DNA of 64,000 bases from Streptomyces sp. S.PB5. Its GTDB lineage: Bacteria; Actinomycetota; Actinomycetes; Streptomycetales; Streptomycetaceae. Each line of letters opens with the position of its first letter. Positions within the stretch are counted from its first letter, which is position 1. The stretch covers positions 806,001 through 870,000 of the forward strand of contig NZ_JAQMWP010000002.1 of the NCBI RefSeq assembly GCF_030403745.1, written 5' to 3'. A program made the translations under genes and the position numbers. The notes below the pieces were generated by a model. The model was not told where the DNA came from. It ran no database searches and worked only from the letters and a program-made list of their open reading frames with translations. Shown one piece after another: positions 47,921 to 60,090 of this stretch.

Positions 47921-50037
<2,117 letters not shown>

Positions 50038-50038
<1 letters not shown>

Positions 50039-50580
50039 CAGGCGGCCTCCTTCGTGAACACGTCCAGGAACGCCTCGTCGAACGCCTTCAGATCGTCCGG
50101 CTTACGGCTGGTGACCAGCTTGCCCGGGCCGTGGTCGCAGACCTTCACCTGCTCGTCGACCCAGGTCCCGCCCGCGTTGCGGATGTCGGTCGCCAGACTC
50201 GGCCAGGAGGTCAGCACCCGGCCCCGGACCACGTCCGCCTCGACGAGCGTCCACGGGGCGTGGCAGATCGCGGCGACGGGCCTGCCCTGGGTGAAGAAGT
50301 CCCGTACGAAGGCGACCGCCTTGTCGTCCGTCCTCAGGTTGTCGGGGTTGGCCACCCCGCCCGGCAGCACCAGCCCGTCGAACGAGTCCGCCGTCGTCTC
50401 GCCCACCACCTCCTGCACGGGGAACGTGTCCGCCTTGTCGAGGTGATGGAACGCCTGGATGGTCCCCGGCTTCGTCGACACGAGAACCGGCTCGTGACCG
50501 GCGTCGACGGCGGCCTTCCACGGCTCGGTCAGTTCGATCTGCTCGACGCCCTCGGGCGCGGTCAGAAACGCGATACGCAT
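50038..50580 (-). CDS. PfpI/DJ-1-family protein (YhbO-like)
   Basis: A 180-residue class I glutamine amidotransferase-like protein. FDGLVLPGGVANPDNLRTDD and RPVAAICHAPWTLVEADVVR carry the nucleophile elbow Cys-His of the DJ-1/PfpI group; the acid is the Glu of the early TAPEGVEQIELTE or a partner subunit residue. Relatives repair glycated proteins or act as stress chaperones. It lies between a membrane protein (6 bp gap) and catalase (1-base overlap), matching an oxidative/general stress role. Confidence 0.92.
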
Positions 50581-50586
50581 GATTCC

Positions 50587-51246
50587 TCAACGTCCTTTCG
50601 TGGCCTGCCAGCGAGCCTCGTCGCTCGAAGCGCGCTTCTTGTTCCGTCGGGCCGCACGCCGGCAGCGCAGCAGCTCCTCGCCGTACGGCAGCAGCACACA
50701 GGCGCCGATCGCGGCCGTGACGCCCGCCAGATAGGCCTTCGACAGCGGCCGCCGCCGCGGCACCAGCCGCCAGGCGTCGGGATCGCCGCGGCCCCCGCGC
50801 AGCAGGGACTTCACCTGGTCGGCGTGCAGACACATCAGCGAGGCCAGGGCGCCGAACGGCAGCGACTCCAGGAAACTGTGGATGTGCTGCTCGATCGGGC
50901 GGACCTCGCGGTCGCTGTCGACGGCCGTCCGTACGTCCCACAGCGCGGTCGCCTCGTGCACCGCGGCGCCGCCCAACTGGACGGCGAGCAGGGCCGGGTT
51001 GACCTCGTAGCGCAGGGTGGCCGCGATCGGGATGCCGACCTCGGCCATCATCAGGGAGTGGATCACCGACTCCTTGGTCCCCGCGGTGTCCTCGATACGG
51101 GTCCGCCGGTGCATCACCCAGTCGGCGAGACCGGGCACGAACCAGCTCGGGAGCAGCCCGTACAGCAGATACCGGGTGGTGACCTCCCCGACGTCGAGGC
51201 TCCCACCGCTCGCCGCCCTGACCTCGGCGGCCTGACCCCGGCTCAC
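50587..51246 (-). CDS. Conserved membrane protein of unknown function
   Basis: A 219-residue protein with several hydrophobic segments (YLLYGLLPSWFVPGLADWVM; MAEVGIPIAATLRYEVNPAL; KAYLAGVTAAIGACVLLPYG). Two His-containing patches, DWVMHRRTRIEDTAGTKESV with VIHSLMMAE, and EQHIHSFLESLPF, could bind metal or haem, as in some membrane hydroxylases or related proteins. I do not recognise the family with certainty. GTG start overlaps the CBS gene stop (GTGA). The C-terminus is basic and likely cytoplasmic. Confidence 0.82.
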   Translation of the reverse strand: MSRGQAAEVRAASGGSLDVGEVTTRYLLYGLLPSWFVPGLADWVMHRRTRIEDTAGTKESVIHSLMMAEVGIPIAATLRYEVNPALLAVQLGGAAVHEATALWDVRTAVDSDREVRPIEQHIHSFLESLPFGALASLMCLHADQVKSLLRGGRGDPDAWRLVPRRRPLSKAYLAGVTAAIGACVLLPYGEELLRCRRAARRNKKRASSDEARWQATKGR

Positions 51247-51710
51247 AGGGCACCCCGGCCGCCAGGCTCCGTCCGGTCGTCCGGCTCCGTCCGGCCGTCC
51301 GGCTCGGCTCGGCTGATCTCGGCCAGTACCGAGTCCGGGTTCTCCGACTCGGCCAGGTCGCCGAGGCTCACCATGCCGACCGGCAGTCCGTCCTCGACGA
51401 CCGGCAACCGGCGTACGGCGTGTGCCCGCATCAGGGCCGCCGCTGCCGAGACCGGGTCCTCGGGGGCGACCAGCACCGGGTCGGAGGTGCACACCGAGCC
51501 CGCGCTCACCGTCAGCGGGTCGACGCCCTCGGCGACCGCCCGCACCGTGATGTCACGATCGGTGAGCACCCCGACGACCCGCTGCCCGTCGGCCACCAGG
51601 ACGTCGCCGATGTCCTGCGTGCGCATCAGCTGCGCGGCCTCGACGAGTGAGGCGTCCGGGCGGACGGCGACCACGCCCGGTGTCATGACGTCCTTCACGA
51701 ATTCGGCCAT
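51243..51710 (-). CDS. Two-CBS-domain protein
   Basis: A 155-residue protein with two CBS modules: VKDVMTPGVVAVRPDASLVE with VGVLTDRDITVRAVAEG, and SVCTSDPVLVAPEDPVSAAA with GMVSLGDLAES. CBS pairs bind adenine nucleotides and sense energy or redox state. A disordered Asp/Arg/Pro/Glu-rich tail (PDGRTEPDDRTEPGG) ends the protein. It is first in the operon CBS, membrane protein, PfpI, catalase. A SigB-like promoter lies 178 bp upstream. Confidence 0.92.
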   Translation of the reverse strand: MAEFVKDVMTPGVVAVRPDASLVEAAQLMRTQDIGDVLVADGQRVVGVLTDRDITVRAVAEGVDPLTVSAGSVCTSDPVLVAPEDPVSAAAALMRAHAVRRLPVVEDGLPVGMVSLGDLAESENPDSVLAEISRAEPDGRTEPDDRTEPGGRGAL

Positions 51711-51887
51711 CGGTGTGGCCCCTTCCTGCGTTTGCGGCTGATGGGCGGGGCCGGGCACGGCCACGACGGTCTCGCGGCCACGGCGATCTGCGGCCGGAGC
51801 CGGAGCCGCCCCCGTGCCGACAGCCCGGCGCGTCGTACCCGAAGCCCGGCCCCGGCGTCCGCCGTGCCGGATGCCGGCCCCGCCGCA

Positions 51888-51912
51888 GTACCCGGGGCCC
51901 GGAGTCCTACGC
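51888..51912 (-). promoter_or_regulatory. Candidate SigB-type promoter of the CBS-catalase operon
   Basis: On the minus strand GCGT (51909-51912), 15-bp spacer and GGGTAC (51888-51893) fit the SigB consensus. It overlaps the last codons of the DUF2795 gene and would leave a leader of about 170 nt. A second GGGTAC at 51835-51840 has no matching -35. Confidence 0.45.
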
Positions 51913-52287
51913 GCCCGGCCGGGTGAGCGCTTCGGCCAATTCCTGGACGGTCGCGTAGTGCCCCTTGCGCGGCAGTCGCTCCACCGCCTCGACGAGGGTG
52001 TCCGGCGCGTACGCCCGGCGCAGTGCCCCGGCCAGTTGCCGTGCGCTCGCCGGGAACGCGCTGCGGCCGAGATGCCGGGCCAGTTCCAGCCGGACCACCC
52101 CCAGCGATGCTCCGGAACGCCCCGGCGCCACGGGCCCGCCCGCGATCACCGGATCGTCGTCGGCGGTGGGTTCGGGATCGTGCCACTCCTCGGTCCGGGT
52201 GGGATGCCCGGACCTCAGCAGCCCCTGCAGTTCGTGTTTCATCTCGTCGTCGCGGTGGACGCTCAGCCGGTCGCTGCCTCGCTGCAT
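51907..52287 (-). CDS. DUF2795-family protein
   Basis: A 126-residue protein. The N-terminal half is polar (DEMKHELQGLLRSGHPTRTE); the C-terminal half is helical and holds the DUF2795 pattern FPASARQLAGALRRAYAPDT with LPRKGHYATVQELAEAL, a small fold common in actinobacteria and of unknown function. GGAGGGAGAG precedes the ATG at 52285-52287. A strong SigB-type promoter lies upstream, so it is likely stress-induced. Confidence 0.85.
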   Translation of the reverse strand: MQRGSDRLSVHRDDEMKHELQGLLRSGHPTRTEEWHDPEPTADDDPVIAGGPVAPGRSGASLGVVRLELARHLGRSAFPASARQLAGALRRAYAPDTLVEAVERLPRKGHYATVQELAEALTRPGA

Positions 52288-52322
52288 GACTCTCCCTCCA
52301 GATCTTCGGGGGCGGTCTCCGC

Positions 52323-52347
52323 GTACCCGAGGACCGGGCCCCGACAC
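52323..52347 (-). promoter_or_regulatory. SigB-type promoter of the DUF2795 gene
   Basis: On the minus strand GTGT (52344-52347), 15-bp spacer and GGGTAC (52323-52328) match GNNT-N14-16-GGGTAC. Predicted leader is about 30 nt to the ATG at 52287. Confidence 0.65.
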
Positions 52348-52418
52348 GGGGGTTTGCCCTCCGTTTCGGGGGAGACCCGGCCGTTCGCCCCCCACGCGAT
52401 CCAGGGGAGGGAAACACC

Positions 52419-52661
52419 ATGGCGGTCCTGGCCGTGTTCATCCCGCTCCTCATGCTCGGCGTGGTGCTGGCACTGGGCCGTTACGAGGAGCTGCTCCTGC
52501 CGGACGAGCGGGAGAAGCCGGGGGAACTGCTGCGGGACGACGGCAAGCCGTCCGTTCCCCCTGCTGCTTCCGTTCCCCCCGCTGCTGAGGCCCGGCTGCC
52601 TACTTCTTCTTCTCCCGCCCCTTCTCCCGCCCCGGCAGGAACTCCTGCATCTTCGCCTTGA
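52419..52661 (+). CDS. Small single-pass membrane protein
   Basis: An 80-residue protein: a membrane helix at residues 2-20 (AVLAVFIPLLMLGVVLALGR), then YEELLLPDEREKPGEL and a Pro/Ala/Ser-rich tail. GGGGAGGG lies 9 nt before the ATG, a strong ribosome site. The last 62 bp overlap the 3' end of the convergent pyruvate oxidase gene, so the tail may reflect the opposite frame. Function unknown. Confidence 0.7.
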   Translation: MAVLAVFIPLLMLGVVLALGRYEELLLPDEREKPGELLRDDGKPSVPPAASVPPAAEARLPTSSSPAPSPAPAGTPASSP

Positions 52662-54411
52662 ACCCCTGCTTGATCATGGACCCGCGGTCGGCGTCGCCCT
52701 TCAGGATCGACTCGGCCGTGGCCTCCATCTGGTCCCAGGTGGCATGCGGAGGGATCGGCGGTACCGCCGGGTCGGTGAGGAACTCGATGACCGCGGGCCC
52801 GTCGGCCTCCAGGCCCGCGCGCCAGCCCGCCTCCACGTCCTCGGGCTTCTCCACGCGGATGCCGGTCAGGCCGAGTGAGCGGGCGAACGCGGCGTACTGC
52901 ACGTCCGGGAGCTCCTGAGAGGGCAGGAAGGAGGGGGCGCCCTCCATGGCGCGCATCTCCCAGGTGACCTGATTCAGATCGTGGTTGTTCCACACACCGA
53001 CGACCAGCCGCGGATCCTCCCACAGGTCCTTGTACTTGGCCGCCGTGATCAGCTCCGCCATGCCGTTCATCTGCATCGCCCCGTCCCCGACCAGCGCGAT
53101 CGCCGGCCGGTCCGGGTGGGCGAACTTCGCGCCGATGGCGTACGGCACTCCGCAGCCCATCGTCGCGAGCGTGCCGGAGAGCGAGGCGCGCATGCCGTCC
53201 CGCATGGTCAGGTGCCGGGCGTACCAGTTGGCGGCCGAGCCGGAGTCGGAGCTGATGATCGCGTCGCCCGGCAGCAGCGGGTCCAGGGCGTGGGCCACGT
53301 ACTCCGGGTTGATCGGGTCGGCCGACAACTCCGCACGGCGTTCCGTCACCTCACGCCAGCGCCGGACGTTGTCGCACACCGTGTCGTACCACTCGCGGCC
53401 GCGCTCCTCCCCGTTCAGCAGCGGTATCAGCCGCTCCAGGGTCGCCTTGGCGTCGCCGACCAGATTGACCTCGTACGGGTAGCGCATCCCGACCATGTGC
53501 GGGTCGATGTCGATCTGCACCCCGCGCGCGTCGCCGAAGTCCGGCAGGAACTGTGTGTAGGGGAAGGACGATCCGATGGTCAGCAGGGTGTCGCAGTCCC
53601 GCATCAGCTCGTACGACGGCCGGGTGCCCAGCAGGCCGATCGCACCGGTGACGTAGGGGAGTTCGTCGCTGAGGGCGTCCTTGCCGAGCAGGGCCTTCGC
53701 GACGCCCGCGCCGAGCAGTTCGGCGATCCGCTGCACCTCGGTGCGCGCGCCCGAGGCGCCCTGGCCGATCAGAATGCCCACCTTGTCACCGGAGTTGAGG
53801 ATCTCGGCCGCCCGCAGCAGGGACTCCTCGGACGGCACGGCCGTCCAGGAACTGCGGTCCAGGCTGGACGGCACCATCTTGAACTCGTGCGTGGGGGCCG
53901 AGTAGTCGAGCTCCTGGACGTCCCCGGGAATGATGATCGCGGTGGGGCAGCGGCGGGCGTACGCGGTGCGGATCGCCCGGTCCAGTACGTTCGGCAACTG
54001 CTCGGGGACGGTCACCGTCTCCACGAAGTCGGAGGCGACGTCCTTGAAGAGGGTGTGCAGATCGACCTCCTGCTGATACGAGCCGCCCATCGCGGTGCGA
54101 TGCGTCTGGCCGACGATCGCCAGCACCGGCACATGGTCGAGCTTGGCGTCGTAGAGGCCGTTGAGGAGATGGATCGCGCCGGGGCCGGAGGTCGCCGCGC
54201 ACACTCCGAGACGGCCGCTGAACTTGGCGTAGCCGACCGCCTGGAACGCCGACATCTCCTCGTGCCGCGACTGGACGAACCGCGGCTCGTTATCGGCCCG
54301 GCCCCATGCGGCGAGCAGGCCGTTGATGCCGTCGCCCGGATAACCGAACACATGGTCCACTCCCCACTCGCGCAGTCGCTGCAGGACGTGGTCGGAGACC
54401 TTGGTGCTCAT
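52600..54411 (-). CDS. poxB: Thiamine-diphosphate-dependent pyruvate oxidase/dehydrogenase (PoxB-like)
   Basis: A 603-residue ThDP enzyme. The pyrimidine domain has the catalytic Glu in VQSRHEEMSAFQAVGYAKFS; the central FAD/nucleotide domain spans about 190-330; the ThDP domain motif is VGDGAMQMNGMAELITAAKY ending near VVGVWNNHDLNQV. Close relatives are E. coli PoxB-type pyruvate:quinone oxidoreductases, which make acetate and feed the respiratory chain. A basic tail (GREKGREKKK) overlaps the convergent small membrane gene. Acetolactate synthase-type activity is less likely from the overall pattern. Confidence 0.88.
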   Translation of the reverse strand: MSTKVSDHVLQRLREWGVDHVFGYPGDGINGLLAAWGRADNEPRFVQSRHEEMSAFQAVGYAKFSGRLGVCAATSGPGAIHLLNGLYDAKLDHVPVLAIVGQTHRTAMGGSYQQEVDLHTLFKDVASDFVETVTVPEQLPNVLDRAIRTAYARRCPTAIIIPGDVQELDYSAPTHEFKMVPSSLDRSSWTAVPSEESLLRAAEILNSGDKVGILIGQGASGARTEVQRIAELLGAGVAKALLGKDALSDELPYVTGAIGLLGTRPSYELMRDCDTLLTIGSSFPYTQFLPDFGDARGVQIDIDPHMVGMRYPYEVNLVGDAKATLERLIPLLNGEERGREWYDTVCDNVRRWREVTERRAELSADPINPEYVAHALDPLLPGDAIISSDSGSAANWYARHLTMRDGMRASLSGTLATMGCGVPYAIGAKFAHPDRPAIALVGDGAMQMNGMAELITAAKYKDLWEDPRLVVGVWNNHDLNQVTWEMRAMEGAPSFLPSQELPDVQYAAFARSLGLTGIRVEKPEDVEAGWRAGLEADGPAVIEFLTDPAVPPIPPHATWDQMEATAESILKGDADRGSMIKQGFKAKMQEFLPGREKGREKKK

Positions 54412-54653
54412 GGACGGACCTCCCGGTCATAGGGGCACACGGGCGCCTTACGAGTGACCGCACGGGCCCCCGGAAAACCTGGAACCGGTTTGCGGCCCAG
54501 GGCCGGGGGCAGGCGCAGTGACAGTGCTTCGGACAGGAGGCACGTCCGTGGGAGAGGCCCGTCGGCCGGCCCCGGCTGTGCCTGTCCGACCGCGGCCGCG
54601 CTCCCACGGTGACCGTCCGACCCAGAGCGCGACCAAGGGAGTTGCGACGCACC

Positions 54654-55448
54654 ATGTCCACTCGAGTGAGCGCGAAGCACCACCCGCACGACGACGCCCC
54701 CGACACCGCCGAGGCCTTTCGCAGGCTCGCCGCGCTGCCCCCGGGCCCTGAGCACGATCGCCTGCGCGGAACGATCGTGGAGGCGTGGCTGCCCATGGCC
54801 GACCGGCTCGCCGGACGCTTCCGCAGCCGCGGTGAGAGCTTCGAGGATCTGCGCCAGGTCGCGGCACTCGGCCTGGTCAAGGCCGTCGACCGCTACGACC
54901 CCGAGCGCGGCAACGCCTTCGAGAGCTACGCCGTGCCCACCATCACCGGTGAGATCAAGCGGCACTTCCGCGACCACATGTGGACGCTGCACGTGCCCCG
55001 GCGGGTCCAGGACCTGCGCAACCGTGTGCGCTTCGCCTGCCAGGACCTGTCCCAGACCGTCTCCGGGCGGCGGCCCACGGTCGCGGAGATCGCCTCGCAC
55101 GCCGGTATGAGCGAGGAGGACGTGCTGGTGGGGCTGGAGGCGCTGGAGAGCTTCACCGCGCTGTCGCTGGACGCGGAACTGCCGGGGAGCGAGGACGGGT
55201 ACTCACTCGGTGACGCGCTGGGAGAGGCCGATCCGGCACTCGACACGGTGGTGGACCGGGAGGCGGTCAAGCCCCGGCTCGCCGCGTTGCCCGAGCGGGA
55301 GCGGGCGATCCTGTACATGCGCTTCTTCGGGGACATGACCCAGTCGCGGATCGCCGAACAGCTCGGGATCTCGCAGATGCATGTGTCCCGGCTGATCAGC
55401 CGGTGCTGCGGGCGGGTGCGGGAGCAAGTGATGAGGGACGTCGCGTAA
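54654..55448 (+). CDS. SigB/SigF/SigG-family RNA polymerase sigma factor
   Basis: A 264-residue group 3 sigma factor. Region 2 is SFEDLRQVAALGLVKAVDRY then GNAFESYAVPTITGEIKRHF; region 3 starts PRRVQDLRNRVRFACQDLSQ; region 4 is LPERERAILYMRFFGDMTQS with the helix-turn-helix RIAEQLGISQMHVSRLI. This subfamily controls stress and differentiation in Streptomyces and is governed by anti-sigma/anti-anti-sigma pairs; none is adjacent. The ATG at 54654 follows AAGGGAG. GTTT-N15-GGGCAG at about 54489 is a near match to the SigB promoter. Confidence 0.95.
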   Translation: MSTRVSAKHHPHDDAPDTAEAFRRLAALPPGPEHDRLRGTIVEAWLPMADRLAGRFRSRGESFEDLRQVAALGLVKAVDRYDPERGNAFESYAVPTITGEIKRHFRDHMWTLHVPRRVQDLRNRVRFACQDLSQTVSGRRPTVAEIASHAGMSEEDVLVGLEALESFTALSLDAELPGSEDGYSLGDALGEADPALDTVVDREAVKPRLAALPERERAILYMRFFGDMTQSRIAEQLGISQMHVSRLISRCCGRVREQVMRDVA

Positions 55449-55576
55449 CGGGCCGTCGAGGTCACTCGCTTGGCCGCACCCGTCCCGCGAATGGGGTCCG
55501 GCGGCGCGCGGCCGGGCGTGAGGCGGGCTGTGATGGCTGCGTGACCCCGCAGTCGACGGTCCAAGGAGTACACCCC

Positions 55577-56209
55577 ATGCGCCGCACCGCCCGTGCCCTG
55601 TCCGTTGCCGTGCTGGTCGGCGCCGCCGTGGGGGCTGCCGTGCCGGTCGCCTTCGCGGAGCCGGCCGCCGAGGTCAGTCCTGGCAGTGCCCAGCCGGGCG
55701 GGAGCGTCACCGTCTCGGTGTCCTGCGATCCCCTCAGCGGGACGGCTCCCACCACCATCGAGGCGACCTCGCAGGCCTTCGACGAGGGGACCGTCCAGCT
55801 GCAGCTCGTCACCGGGAACGACGACGCCGTGTCCGGGCCCGCCTACCGAGGCACCGCGCGGATCGGCCCCGCCTCGGACTTCGAGGAACCGGACGCGGTC
55901 GGCCGGGACTCCGCGTGGACCGTCGACGGGACCTGCCCGGCGGCCACCGGCACGCAGGGCAGGCAGTGGAGCGCGACGTTCACGGTGGTGCGCGGGAGCG
56001 GGCACTCCGAACACTCCGGGCAGTCCTGCACCGAGCCGCGCACGGCGTCCTGTTCCGGCGCCGCGGTCCAGCGGGGGGTGCGGGCCGGTGCGGGCGGGGC
56101 CTTCACCGATTCGGTGCCCGCCCTGGTCACCGGCGGGGTGCTCATCGCGGGAGCGCTGGGCGCGGCCGTGTACCGGGTACGGCGTAAGGCGCCCCCCGGA
56201 CAGGCGTGA
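55577..56209 (+). CDS. Secreted, membrane-anchored protein of unknown function
   Basis: A 210-residue protein. Signal peptide 1-27 (RRTARALSVAVLVGAAVGAA, cut near AFA). A beta-rich extracellular domain follows (SAQPGGSVTVSVSCDPLSGT; CPAATGTQGRQWSATFTVVR) with several Cys. A C-terminal membrane helix (VPALVTGGVLIAGALGAAVY) and basic RVRRKA end. This layout suits a wall- or membrane-attached surface protein. AAGGAG is 8 nt before the ATG. No family recognised. Confidence 0.85.
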   Translation: MRRTARALSVAVLVGAAVGAAVPVAFAEPAAEVSPGSAQPGGSVTVSVSCDPLSGTAPTTIEATSQAFDEGTVQLQLVTGNDDAVSGPAYRGTARIGPASDFEEPDAVGRDSAWTVDGTCPAATGTQGRQWSATFTVVRGSGHSEHSGQSCTEPRTASCSGAAVQRGVRAGAGGAFTDSVPALVTGGVLIAGALGAAVYRVRRKAPPGQA

Positions 56210-56364
56210 GCCCGGCGTGTGACCGGCGCAACTCGAGCGGACCCCTATGGGTGCGCGCCACCCTGGGTACTCAGATGCCGAGGGCGCCGCCCCCGTCGTA
56301 CGGAGCGACCCGAGGTGAGGGCACCCCACGGCGCCGCGACCCAGCAGCCCACCCGGAGGTACCC

Positions 56365-57612
56365 ATGCGGCGGACGGACCCGGAAGGACACGGCCCCGTC
56401 CGCTACGGCCCCCCGCTGCCGGACGACGGACTGCCCGTGCTGCCCGAACTGGCCGCCGTGCTCGCCGCGGCCGCGACCCGCGGGAACAGCGAACCGGTGG
56501 GCGGCGGGACCGAACTCCTGGAGGCCGCGTGCGGCTACTGGGACCGGCGTGGCCTGGCCGTCGGATCCGAGCGGGTGGTGGCGGCCCCCGGCGCCCCCGC
56601 GCTGCTGCTCGCGCTGACCGCCGCCCTGGGCGGCGACGTCCTGGTGCCACGGCCCTGCGCGGCCTGGTGGGCGCCGTACGCACGCCTGTTGGGAAGACCC
56701 GTCTTCCATGTGCCGACACCGGCGGAGAGCGGCGGTGTCCCGGATCCGTACGCCCTCCTGGAGACCGTCCGCCGGGTCCGTGACGAGGGCGGGGACCCCC
56801 GGCTGCTCGTGCTGTCGGTCGCCGACGACCCCACCGCCACCGTGGCGCCGCCCGAGGTGCTGCACGAGACCGCGCAGGCCGCCACCGGTGAGGGACTGCA
56901 CCTGGTCAGCGACGAGACCTGGCGGGACACCGTGCACGCGCCGCACGACACCGTGCTGCTCAGCCCCGCCGAGATGCTGCCCGAGAAGGTCACCGTCGTC
57001 AGCGACCTGGCCGGTGCGCTGCTGCCGTCGGGCTGGCCCGCCGCCGTCGCCCGTTTCCCCGCGGGGCAGTTCGGCGACGGTCTGCACGCGCGCGTGCTGG
57101 ACGTCCTGACCGCGATGGGCGCCCGGGTCGCCGCCCCCGTCGCCACCGCTGCCGGATACGCGCTCCAGGAACCCGAACCGGTCACCACGCGCGTGACGGC
57201 CGCCGTGCGCCTGCACGCGCGCGTGGCCGCCGCCGCGCACGCCGCCGTCGTCTCGGCGGGCGCCCTGGCCCGGCCCCCGCAGGCCGGCCGGCACCTCTAC
57301 GCCGACCTCGGCCCGCTGCGCACCGCCCTGTCCGCGCACGGCGTCGGCGACGCCCAGGACCTGGAGGACTTCCTCGCGGCCCGGCTCGGGCTGCCCGCCC
57401 CGGGCGGCCACCGCTTCGGCGACGACCTCGGCGCCCTGCGGGTACGCCTGTCCACCGGTTCGCTGCTCACCGGGACGGACGCCGAACTCAAGGAATGCCT
57501 CAGTTCACCCTCACCGTTGGAACTGCCACACGTGCAACGCGCGTTGATCACTCTGAAGTCGGTTTTCGACGACCTCCGCGACGACGCTCAGCGATGGGAG
57601 CCTCCTCGATGA
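56365..57612 (+). CDS. Aminotransferase-fold protein lacking the catalytic lysine
   Basis: A 415-residue protein of the class I/II aminotransferase fold: RYGPPLPDDGLPVLPELAAV, GGGTELLEAACGYWDRRGLA, and VPRPCAAWWAPYARLLGRPV follow family order. The PLP residues are changed. The S-x-S-K lysine segment reads SDLAGALLPSGWP (residues 213-225), the DExY motif is DETW (183-186), and the NPxNPTG loop is SVADDPTATV. A conserved LRVRLSTG remains near the end. It probably does not do classical transamination and may bind PLP differently or be a scaffold. GGAGG precedes the ATG at 56365; ATGA overlap with the next gene. Confidence 0.85.
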   Translation: MRRTDPEGHGPVRYGPPLPDDGLPVLPELAAVLAAAATRGNSEPVGGGTELLEAACGYWDRRGLAVGSERVVAAPGAPALLLALTAALGGDVLVPRPCAAWWAPYARLLGRPVFHVPTPAESGGVPDPYALLETVRRVRDEGGDPRLLVLSVADDPTATVAPPEVLHETAQAATGEGLHLVSDETWRDTVHAPHDTVLLSPAEMLPEKVTVVSDLAGALLPSGWPAAVARFPAGQFGDGLHARVLDVLTAMGARVAAPVATAAGYALQEPEPVTTRVTAAVRLHARVAAAAHAAVVSAGALARPPQAGRHLYADLGPLRTALSAHGVGDAQDLEDFLAARLGLPAPGGHRFGDDLGALRVRLSTGSLLTGTDAELKECLSSPSPLELPHVQRALITLKSVFDDLRDDAQRWEPPR

Positions 57613-58685
57613 CGCAGCAGTCCGAGTCGACCACCACCAGCACGACCACCAGCACGGCCACCCGGGAGGCCGACGATCCGGCGGCCCTGTCCCCCCTAGC
57701 CCCCCTCGCCCCGTTCCCGCCGCTCGCCGAACCCCGCCCGCTGGGCGAACGCCGGGTCTGGCCCCGGACCTTCCACGACCGCCTGACCGCCCCGCTGCCC
57801 GGCCTCAAGGCCATGGCCCGGTTCGCCCGCGAGGGCTCGGTCCGTCCCGGCCGCGAGGGCCTCGCCGACATCCCCCGCCTGCCCTTCGCCCCCCGCCCCC
57901 TGCCCCGCGTCGACGCCCGCACGGTCGCCGTCTCCTGGGCGGGACACGCCAGTTGGGTGGTGCGGATCGGCGGTCTGACCGTCCTCACCGACCCCGTCTG
58001 GTCCCGCCGCATCCTCGGCACCCCGGCCCGGATCACCCCCGTCGGCATCCCCTGGGACGCCCTGCCGCGCGTCGACGCCGTCGTCATCAGCCACAACCAC
58101 TACGACCACCTCGACGCCCCCACCCTGCGCCGGCTCCCGCGCGACACCCCGGTCTTCGTCCCCGCCGGACTCGGCCCCTGGTTCCGCCGCCGCCGCTTCA
58201 CCCTCGTCACCGAGCTCGACTGGTGGGAGGCCGCCGAACTGAACGGCGTACGCCTCGACTTCGTCCCCTCCCACCACTGGTCCAAGCGCACCCTCACCGA
58301 CACCTGCCGCAGCCTCTGGGGCGGCTGGGTCCTCACCTCCAGCGACGGACAGCGGGTGTACTTCGCGGGCGACACCGGCTACGGCCACTGGTTCTCCCGC
58401 ATCGGCCGCCGCTACCCCGGCATCGACCTCGCCCTCCTGCCGATCGGCGCCTACGACCCCCGCTGGTGGCTGAGCGATGTCCACTGCGACCCGGAGGAAG
58501 CGGTGCGGGCGGCACAGGACCTGGGCGCGCGCCGGATGGCCCCCATGCACTGGGGCACGTTCGTGCTGTCGGCGGAACCGGTCCTGGAGCCGCTGACCAG
58601 GGTGCGGGCGGCCTGGGAGAAGGCGGGCCTGGCGCGGGAGGACCTGTGGGACCTGCCGGTCGGAGGATCGAGGGTGCTCGGTTAG
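57609..58685 (+). CDS. Metallo-beta-lactamase-fold hydrolase (NAPE-PLD/UlaG-like)
   Basis: A 358-residue hydrolase with a Thr/Ser/Ala-rich N-terminal 50 residues. Metal motif ISHNHYDHLDAPTLRRLP (HxHxDH), FVPSHHWSKRTLTDTC, YFAGDTGYGHWF and MHWGTFVLSAEPVLEP are the NAPE-PLD/UlaG-type ligands in order. These proteins hydrolyse phosphodiester or ester bonds; a lipid substrate is possible. ATG at 57609 overlaps the aminotransferase-fold stop and has GGGAG 8 nt upstream; ATG at 57594 is an alternative. Its last 4 bp overlap the DedA gene tail to tail. Confidence 0.9.
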   Translation: MTQQSESTTTSTTTSTATREADDPAALSPLAPLAPFPPLAEPRPLGERRVWPRTFHDRLTAPLPGLKAMARFAREGSVRPGREGLADIPRLPFAPRPLPRVDARTVAVSWAGHASWVVRIGGLTVLTDPVWSRRILGTPARITPVGIPWDALPRVDAVVISHNHYDHLDAPTLRRLPRDTPVFVPAGLGPWFRRRRFTLVTELDWWEAAELNGVRLDFVPSHHWSKRTLTDTCRSLWGGWVLTSSDGQRVYFAGDTGYGHWFSRIGRRYPGIDLALLPIGAYDPRWWLSDVHCDPEEAVRAAQDLGARRMAPMHWGTFVLSAEPVLEPLTRVRAAWEKAGLAREDLWDLPVGGSRVLG

Positions 58686-59320
58686 ACCCCGGCCGTCCCA
58701 CGGACGCGCCGCCACACGGAGGGGGCCGCGCTGATCACCACGGTCAGCGCGACCGCCGCGACCACACCCTCCCAGGGTTCGCTGAACAGCGAACCGCCGA
58801 GGATCCCGATCAGCTGATAGGTGACCGCCCAGGCCAGACAGGCCGGGAAGTTGCCCCGGACGAACCTCCGCAACGGCCACTTGGCCATGAGGCATGCCAA
58901 CATCACGGGGATCCGGCCCGCCGGCACCAGCCGCGACAGCACCAGCACCGTCACACCATGGTCGGCCAGCTTCTCCTGCGCCTGCGTCAGCCGCTCCTCC
59001 GGAGCCCGCGACCGGATCGCCTCCAGCCACCGCGACCCGTTCTTCGACCGCATCCCGCGCCGACCCAGCCAGTACAGCGTGGCGTCCCCCAGGAACGCGG
59101 CCACCGACGCCGTGACGAACACCAGCGCCAACGCGAACGGCGCGGTCTGATGGAACGCCACCACCGCCGCCGAGCTCACCAGCGCCCCGGTCGGCACGAT
59201 CGGCACCAACGCCCCGATCAACACCAGCAGGAACAGCGACGGATACCCGATCGCCTGCTGTGTGGACTCCGGCGGCACGGTCGACACGGGGGCCGCCGCC
59301 AGCAGCCAGGGCGACGTCAC
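58682..59320 (-). CDS. DedA-family membrane protein
   Basis: A 212-residue protein of the DedA/VTT group: YPSLFLLVLIGALVPIVPTG, ASVAAFLGDATLYWLGRRGM (family motif with the acidic residue and Gly), then VLVLSRLVPAGRIPVMLACL (the conserved R-x-x-P-x-x-R region) and NFPACLAWAVTYQLIGILGG. DedA proteins are implicated in undecaprenyl-phosphate or phospholipid flipping and membrane homeostasis. GTG at 59320 overlaps the upstream metallo-hydrolase stop (GTGA), so the two are coupled. Confidence 0.92.
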   Translation of the reverse strand: MTSPWLLAAAPVSTVPPESTQQAIGYPSLFLLVLIGALVPIVPTGALVSSAAVVAFHQTAPFALALVFVTASVAAFLGDATLYWLGRRGMRSKNGSRWLEAIRSRAPEERLTQAQEKLADHGVTVLVLSRLVPAGRIPVMLACLMAKWPLRRFVRGNFPACLAWAVTYQLIGILGGSLFSEPWEGVVAAVALTVVISAAPSVWRRVRGTAGV

Positions 59321-60090
59321 CGCGCCACCCCCGGCCGCACGCTCTCCCCGTGCCCCAGCAGATGCACCGCCACCCCCGGCGCCCGCTCCGCCGCGAGCCG
59401 CACGAACTCCGCACCGGGCGCGTGGAATTCATGGGGGCGCACGGCGTCCATCCCGATCGGCCAGTACGTGCCGTAGTGCACCGGCACCGCGCTCACCGGA
59501 TCGAGCTGCGCCAGTGCCTGCGCCGCCCGCCCCGCGTCCAGGTGCCCCTCCCCGAGATGCGGGCCCCAGCCCCCCACCGGCAGCAACGCCACATCGACCG
59601 GCCCGACCTCCTTGGCCATCGAGTCGAACAACCCGGTGTCCCCGGCGAAGTACGTCCGCGCCTCACCCTCGACGACATACCCGAGCGCGGGGGAGCGATG
59701 CGGCCCGACCGGCAGCCGCCGCCCGTCGTGCAGAGCGGGGACCGCCCGTACGACGACGTCCCCCACCGCCGTCTCGTCGCCGGGTGAGACCTCGCTGACG
59801 TGCAGATGGGCGAGCCGGCGCAGCCCCGGTACGGCACGGGCCGCACCCCGGGGCACGAGCAGGCGCGTGCCCGGCGCGAGCCGCTGCAGGGAGGGAACGT
59901 GCAGATGATCGGCGTGCAGATGGGAGACGAGCGCCACGTCCGCACGCCAGGCGGTCGGCGGCGGTACCGCGCCCCGGCGGCGGCGCAGATGTGCGAGCCG
60001 GCGGGCGAACAGAGGGTCGGTGAGCACACGTACGTCCGAGTCCGCGACCGTGCAGGTGGCGTGACCCCACCACGTGATCTCCACCGGCAC
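59317..60090 (-). CDS. Metallo-beta-lactamase-fold hydrolase
   Basis: A 257-residue hydrolase. ITWWGHATCTVADSDVRVLT at the start; metal motif VSHLHADHLHVPSLQRLAPG; TYFAGDTGLFDSMAKEVGPV; and VPVHYGTYWPIGMD near the end. It belongs to the UlaG/NAPE-PLD-like branch and is smaller than the hydrolase at 57609. Substrate unknown. GTG at 60088-60090 has AGGAGG 9 nt upstream. It forms an operon with DedA. Confidence 0.9.
   Translation of the reverse strand: MPVEITWWGHATCTVADSDVRVLTDPLFARRLAHLRRRRGAVPPPTAWRADVALVSHLHADHLHVPSLQRLAPGTRLLVPRGAARAVPGLRRLAHLHVSEVSPGDETAVGDVVVRAVPALHDGRRLPVGPHRSPALGYVVEGEARTYFAGDTGLFDSMAKEVGPVDVALLPVGGWGPHLGEGHLDAGRAAQALAQLDPVSAVPVHYGTYWPIGMDAVRPHEFHAPGAEFVRLAAERAPGVAVHLLGHGESVRPGVAR

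Follow-up and report, generated by a model that had tools for sequence, protein, structure and literature searches.

The pseudo-aminotransferase and its cofactor site

The window analysed here is a 64,000 nt stretch of the genome of Streptomyces sp. S.PB5 (contig NZ_JAQMWP010000002.1, positions 806,001 to 870,000, forward strand), the assembly of which comprises 10.85 Mb in 66 contigs. It contains two adjoining genes (Table 1): one encodes a protein with the fold of an aminotransferase that lacks the lysine to which pyridoxal phosphate (PLP) is bound, hereafter pseudo-AT, and the other a hydrolase of the metallo-beta-lactamase (MBL) fold resembling NAPE-PLD, hereafter MBL1. The pseudo-AT frame runs from an ATG at 56365 to a stop codon ending at 57612 and consists of 415 codons with no internal stops, whilst the GC content of its third codon positions (0.90, with 0.95 in MBL1) is in line with coding DNA in this region. 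The initial annotation, made from the sequence alone, was therefore exact in describing an intact frame of this length with normal codon use.

The Pfam family Aminotran_1_2 matches pseudo-AT (E = 1.9e-11), as it does all 64 rows of an alignment, A1, composed of 44 non-redundant Streptomyces relatives of pseudo-AT and 20 members of a lysine-bearing aminotransferase family, referred to below as sisters; within A1, row L201 has unknown residues, and L181 has an insert and an N-terminal part that is out of register. An AlphaFold2 model built from these 64 rows has a mean pLDDT (per-residue confidence) of 91.9 and a pTM (predicted template modelling score) of 0.89. The best matches to this model in the PDB, as identified by Foldseek, are aspartate aminotransferases (AspATs) from Thermus (E = 1.7e-20), with prephenate aminotransferases also among the best; in the top 20 VIA rows comparing the model with the PDB, all of which have aminotransferase titles except for one Pyrococcus protein, Z ranges from 39.0 to 41.1, with a root mean square deviation of 1.9-2.5 Å over 341-358 residues. 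Taken together, these results leave the predicted fold of pseudo-AT certain as that of a class I/II aminotransferase of fold type I, as had been proposed. One of the sisters, L098, was modelled with the same confidence (pLDDT 91.9); its N-terminal helix, at residues 8-21, is not predicted in the pseudo-AT model.

The contacts to PLP are a different matter. With the columns of A1 assigned to what we take to be the corresponding residues of AspAT, the Schiff-base lysine is found to be replaced by G217, the PLP-contacting tyrosine by W186 and the PLP-contacting asparagine by D155, as the initial annotation had noticed; the loss extends beyond these three, with the phosphate-binding arginine replaced by P225 (counts for all four positions are given in Table 1). 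The stacking tryptophan, found in 20/20 sisters, is A99 in pseudo-AT, with Ala, Pro or Ser in 41 of the 44 relatives; again relative to the 20 sisters, the Gly-Ser-Lys loop has become Gly-Ala-Pro, and the N-terminal tyrosine has been lost (S42). The aspartate facing the ring nitrogen of PLP (D183) and the arginine expected to bind the substrate carboxylate (R359) are kept, in 44/44 and 43/44 rows respectively. D154, E184 and R187 are, like D183, invariant among the 44 rows, and D155 is present in 43. A further comparison of the two groups in A1 identified 32 positions well conserved in both at which the residue differs between them.

None of the 44 relatives retains the lysine, and no conserved alternative was found in A1, the commonest lysine column having this residue in only 6/44 rows; a catalytic lysine elsewhere in pseudo-AT is thereby ruled out. 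Lysine is absent altogether from 28 of the 44 proteins. This cannot serve as proof alone, as these proteins are generally lysine-poor: pseudo-AT of the window has three lysines, and three were counted by eye in MBL1. As the scarcity is in part a matter of general composition, more weight is placed on the position-specific result. With the Schiff-base lysine missing from 44/44 rows, as well as from all 19 loci of other genera described below, and the contacts to the PLP phosphate and ring (the Ser/Lys loop, Arg, Asn, Tyr and Trp) replaced, formation of a PLP Schiff base by the known route is, judging by the alignments, impossible in pseudo-AT. Replacement of the phosphate contacts likewise makes non-covalent binding of PLP or pyridoxamine phosphate unlikely. 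Hence the loss of the PLP site is confirmed, and in a stronger form than that in which it was first stated.

Table 1. Features of the locus, in coordinates of the window; counts for neighbouring genes refer to the 73 loci with full flanks.
Feature	Position	Strand	Support
Sigma-70 family factor, putatively of SigB/SigF type (start uncertain)	54687..55448	+	59/73 loci
Fast-evolving protein with a signal-peptide-like start	55571-56209	+	directly upstream of pseudo-AT
GGGTAC element, resembling a SigB-type -10 box (tentative sigma assignment)	56265..56270	+	begins 100 bases upstream of the ATG; surroundings conserved
pseudo-AT, PLP-less aminotransferase-fold protein, 415 aa	56365..57612	+	frame, Pfam, model, structure matches
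Codon 155 (Asp), PLP-contacting Asn position	56827..56829	+	A1: sisters N 20/20; pseudo-AT D 43, E 1 of 44
Codon 186 (Trp), PLP-contacting Tyr position	56920..56922	+	sisters Y 20/20; pseudo-AT W 39/44, R 3, Y 1, L 1
Codon 217 (Gly), Schiff-base lysine position	57013..57015	+	A1: sisters K 20/20; pseudo-AT G 37, A 6, E 1 of 44
Codon 225 (Pro), PLP-phosphate Arg position	57037..57039	+	A1: sisters R 20/20; pseudo-AT P 42/44
MBL1, NAPE-PLD-like metallo-beta-lactamase-fold hydrolase, 358 aa	57609..58685	+	Pfam, PDB match; start overlaps pseudo-AT stop (ATGA)
DedA/VTT-domain membrane protein	58682..59320	-	73/73 loci
MBL2, second metallo-beta-lactamase-fold protein	59317..60090	-	Pfam; 73/73 loci
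Holin-phosphodiesterase fusion: four-transmembrane phage-holin-like PF04020 and type I phosphodiesterase/nucleotide pyrophosphatase PF01663	60662-62740	+	73/73 loci

Distribution, age and selection

A scan of GTDB genomes returned 365 relatives, from which the best 80 loci were kept; 79 of these are from Streptomyces, the other (L023) being labelled as an Actinobacteria bacterium. Searching 197 genomes of the class recovered the Streptomyces orthologues, the sister family at 36-43% identity, and further, weaker matches at 33% identity or less; the 20 sister rows of a second alignment, A2, are 35-42% identical to the pseudo-AT of the window. As regards INTERMEDIATES and age, the pseudo-AT type also turned up in other genera when 121 genomes of the family were searched. 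There are 19 such loci, in 19 genomes of eight other Streptomycetaceae genera, encoding proteins 46-58% identical to pseudo-AT, whilst a further genome (G513) gave the lysine-bearing sister type. In all 19 the lysine is absent and aspartate stands in place of the PLP-contacting asparagine; the tyrosine is still present in 12 (with F in five, R in one and L in one), and the phosphate-binding arginine in two. A maximum-likelihood tree of 63 rows, obtained by a quick search with L201 left out, divides the lysine-less from the lysine-bearing rows by a single branch with an SH-aLRT value of 100; this tree covers rows of A1 only. The simplest reading of these alignments is that loss of the lysine and asparagine preceded the divergence of the genera, that of the tyrosine mostly coming later. 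Within Streptomyces itself, 279 of 295 genomes have a match; five of these contain only the sister, leaving 274 with pseudo-AT or a piece of it, a count that treats matches with E < 1e-86 as the lysine-less type without each having been read individually.

The sister family of Actinomycetes belongs to the same Pfam family as pseudo-AT and lies on the opposite side of the same tree branch, but retains the Lys, Asn, Tyr and Arg in 20/20 sequences. Where wide loci of the sister were read, it sits elsewhere in the genome, either next to a LysR gene or near AMP-ligases and a protein bearing a CxxxCxxC motif; no MBL1 was found in ten wide loci (L150-L159). In L150, L151 and L152, the sister directly adjoins the CxxxCxxC protein, the motif of which may be like that of radical S-adenosylmethionine aminomutases, and, with the AMP-ligases nearby, these loci have the look of biosynthetic clusters; the L150 and L151 copies of the CxxxCxxC protein had no Pfam hit at 1e-5.

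Relative to the gene in the window, the median ratio of nonsynonymous to synonymous substitution rates (dN/dS) of pseudo-AT is 0.250 over 80 loci. The corresponding medians are 0.167 for MBL1, 0.168 for DedA, 0.175 for MBL2, 0.131 for a small unknown protein, 0.228 for the holin-phosphodiesterase, 0.134 for the sigma factor, 0.124 for the thiamine pyrophosphate (TPP) enzyme and 0.435, over 62 loci, for the secreted protein directly upstream of pseudo-AT. The protein is thus constrained at the sequence level, though less so than most of its neighbours, and because of this low median pseudo-AT appears to be a selected, PLP-free pseudoenzyme rather than a product of decay.

The adjoining hydrolase and the conserved neighbourhood

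MBL1 is matched by the Pfam family Lactamase_B_2 (E = 3.8e-47), and the closest PDB entry is the NAPE-PLD structure 4qn9 (E = 1.4e-59 over residues 105-357). Its HNHYDHLD (HxHxDH), HHW, AGDTGY (DTG) and HWGTF motifs all align with 4qn9, and presumably hold the metal, bearing out the proposed likeness to NAPE-PLD; the two differ in that MBL1 is bacterial and has 104 N-terminal residues outside the match. The translational coupling that had been suggested is likewise real. Amongst the 80 close loci, the stop codon of pseudo-AT reads ATGA in 79 and GTGA in one, MBL1 is matched in 78, and the overlapping ATG is in frame with it in 76. Of 16 divergent Streptomyces loci with MBL1, six could have a start that overlaps the stop, and none was found at this position in the 16 MBL1-bearing loci of other genera. 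MBL1 is nevertheless the next gene on the same strand in 16 of the 19 loci of other genera, from which the adjacency of the two genes is judged to be old.

MBL1, taken as absent where there is no match at E 1e-80, is missing from 38 of the 295 Streptomyces genomes, yet 31 of these retain pseudo-AT, as judged by comparing the presence tables by hand; 18 of the 31 were read as loci or listed matches, L094 being among the MBL1-less loci. From 16 that were fetched, 13 have intact frames of 401-432 codons in which the lysine is absent, and no MBL1 was found in the 1.5 kb following these; the other three comprise one broken frame, one with an insert and one at a contig edge. The presence of MBL1 changes at least eight times on the tree, with states set by hand and L038 and L201 left out of the count. 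Nor does loss of MBL1 visibly loosen selection on pseudo-AT, because at dS < 0.5 the median dN/dS is 0.227 in MBL1-less pairs (16 pairs, 0.165-0.295) and 0.344 in MBL1-bearing pairs (20 pairs, 0.187-0.570), the respective medians being 0.439 and 0.409 at dS 0.5-0.7, and 0.473 and 0.492 at dS 0.7-1.0. The ratio rises with dS in both groups, and only the close pairs are trusted, as dS probably saturates in such GC-rich DNA. Four genomes with two weak MBL1 pieces each (G334, G386, G421 and G459) were considered as possible frameshifts in MBL1, but one in-frame alignment exists in each.

The converse also occurs. Of the 257 MBL1-bearing genomes, 243 have pseudo-AT and 14 do not; the figures for MBL1-less genomes are 31 and seven. 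The table leans towards joint presence, but nothing is drawn from this, because five of the seven genomes with neither gene are fragmented assemblies of 480 to 1420 contigs. Ten of the 14 are similarly assemblies of at least 310 contigs; in the remaining four, of 50 to 140 contigs, reading of the neighbourhood and a profile search found no pseudo-AT beside MBL1. Beyond Streptomycetaceae, two further families of the class provided four genomes with MBL1 relatives, 57-63% identical, and there too no pseudo-AT-like neighbour lies within about 6 kb. Across 72 loci, the partial correlation of evolutionary rate with that of pseudo-AT is 0.41 for DedA, 0.38 for the holin-phosphodiesterase and 0.18 for MBL1, although this is a weak test, since pairwise distances are not independent. 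The joint gain and loss expected of an obligate pairing is hence not observed: on this distribution pseudo-AT is not an obligate partner of MBL1, and the case for a pseudoenzyme dedicated to this hydrolase is weakened. The two may form a complex, but pseudo-AT must, on the same grounds, do something else too.

In addition to the genes in Table 1, MBL1 and the small unknown protein are each present in 73/73 full-flank loci. In the region 48002-60090, one DedA gene lies between two distinct hydrolases of the metallo-beta-lactamase fold, and the upstream part encodes a catalase, a DJ-1/PfpI protein, a CBS protein, the TPP enzyme and the sigma factor, giving the region the appearance of a stress block. 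The secreted protein had no Pfam match at 0.001.

Upstream of pseudo-AT, GGGTA[CT] is found in 83 of 95 regions, a total that includes the window under its own name and again as L081; the expectation is 0.083 per 250 nt. The element is rarer outside the core clade, being detected in 4/13 MBL1-less, 1/18 divergent and 0/20 sister loci. In S. coelicolor, promoters of the SigB type carry -10 boxes like GGGTAC (PMC8346170), but the sequence here fits the published -35 pattern, GNNT/GTTT, poorly. It is reasonable to suggest from the sequence that pseudo-AT is under stress sigma control in the core clade, and the sigma assignment stays tentative because the -35 match is poor and most MBL1-less and divergent relatives do not have the element. 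In the window and loci L001-L093, the GGGTAC element and the ATGA overlap are both hallmarks of the core Streptomyces clade, whereas few members of the divergent lineages checked have them; the promoter element and the tight coupling may have arisen together.

Possible roles and precedents

The initial annotation envisaged a pseudo-enzyme that regulates or scaffolds the hydrolase. The first part stands, given the fixed substitutions and purifying selection, whilst the second is supported only in part. A dedicated regulator, chaperone or scaffold, co-translated with MBL1 and in complex with it, would account for the in-frame overlap in 76/80 close loci, for the overlapping start possible in six divergent ones, for the same-strand adjacency in other genera and for the 243/257 MBL1-bearing genomes that hold pseudo-AT, most exceptions being highly fragmented. 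However, it sits poorly with the 31/38 MBL1-less genomes that keep pseudo-AT, intact and without the Schiff-base lysine in 13 of the 16 loci read and under no looser constraint, and with the repeated changes in MBL1 presence. MBL1 also stands alone in four Streptomyces genomes, as do its relatives in the other families, no start lies at the stop codon in the 16 MBL1-bearing loci of other genera, and the rate of pseudo-AT shows no excess co-variation with that of MBL1. We regard this role as a real but doubtful possibility.

It is quite unlikely that the pocket has instead been rebuilt for a new, PLP-independent chemistry, such as acid-base or metal catalysis by conserved Asp and Glu residues: the invariance of D154, D183, E184 and R187, and near-invariance of D155, in the clade would suit such an enzyme, but no metal-site motif was recognised by eye in pseudo-AT, and D154, D183 and E184 may be structural, as the PLP-dependent sisters conserve them completely or almost so. 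R187, for its part, is not kept across all other genera; this, and the conservation of the other three in the sisters, also weighs against the re-walled pocket favoured below. Pseudo-AT might instead be the inactive half of a heterodimer, the other half being an active aminotransferase, after the manner of LCB1 and LCB2 in serine palmitoyltransferase; this has a PLP-fold precedent (PMC3794620), and the fold is kept. Such an arrangement is very unlikely, given that a close active sister is lacking in the host genome (the two other matches there are 27% identical) and that sister genes, in the wide loci read, lie elsewhere, although a more remote aminotransferase might still act as the partner. 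Also weighing against a selected pseudoenzyme is that the median dN/dS exceeds that of every compared neighbour except the secreted protein, that pseudo-AT is split over frames in G201 and has an insert in G240, and that 21/295 Streptomyces genomes, many of them fragmented, lack it, such that it is dispensable in places. Nevertheless, the chance of a decaying pseudogene or a sequencing artefact is practically negligible, being refuted by conservation: the substitutions are fixed across the sampled family, the gene is constrained, most frames are intact, and it is present in 274/295 Streptomyces genomes and eight other genera.

We therefore favour, as probable though by no means assured, a non-catalytic and probably ligand-binding protein with a re-walled pocket, which modulates a member of the stress/envelope block and derives from a PLP-dependent class I/II aminotransferase. 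Such an ancestor would have lost PLP and been re-purposed within Streptomycetaceae, with the fold kept, new residues fixed at the old pocket and selection still acting. The rebuilt pocket, with D154/D155, D183/E184 and the retained R359, may bind a small amine or carboxylate ligand, and pseudo-AT could thereby modulate a member of the conserved block comprising DedA, the two MBL hydrolases and the holin-phosphodiesterase; MBL1 would be among the targets where its gene is present, but not the sole one. In a more specific, and rather improbable, version, pseudo-AT would sense a small molecule and act allosterically within a lipid/envelope stress module, switching MBL1 where present and otherwise, for example, DedA, which is named because its evolutionary rate is the one best tracked by that of pseudo-AT.

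No literature on pseudo-AT or its pairing with MBL1 was found by title or abstract, the S. coelicolor locus tags used being guesses. Pfam-based annotation places this family among the aminotransferases despite its having no conserved PLP lysine, and would be corrected. The family is a clear-cut example, provided by nature, of a pseudoenzyme made from a PLP enzyme, with an active sister available for comparison, and the other genera provide living intermediates, in which the lysine and asparagine are always gone but the tyrosine, and in two loci the arginine, persist. It is a test bed for the re-use of cofactor sites, and draws attention to a stress/envelope gene block that is conserved among antibiotic producers.

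With the fold type I, class I/II aminotransferases, such as the Thermus AspATs (1bjw, 1gck and 5bj3) and the Arabidopsis prephenate aminotransferase (5wmh and 6f5v), pseudo-AT shares the predicted fold over residues ~10-409, 13-23% identity, and the aspartate facing N1 and the carboxylate arginine; unlike them, it has the Schiff-base lysine, PLP-contacting Asn and Tyr, phosphate Arg and stacking Trp replaced. LCB1 (SPTLC1) of serine palmitoyltransferase similarly has a PLP fold and lacks the PLP lysine (PMC3794620), but works with its active homologue LCB2, of which the host genome of pseudo-AT has no close equivalent. The TSB-like pseudoenzyme of eudicots (PMC12727527) is also a non-catalytic relative of a PLP enzyme and allosterically activates a partner; in that case, unlike that of pseudo-AT, the partner is the natural partner of the pseudoenzyme's own active paralogue.

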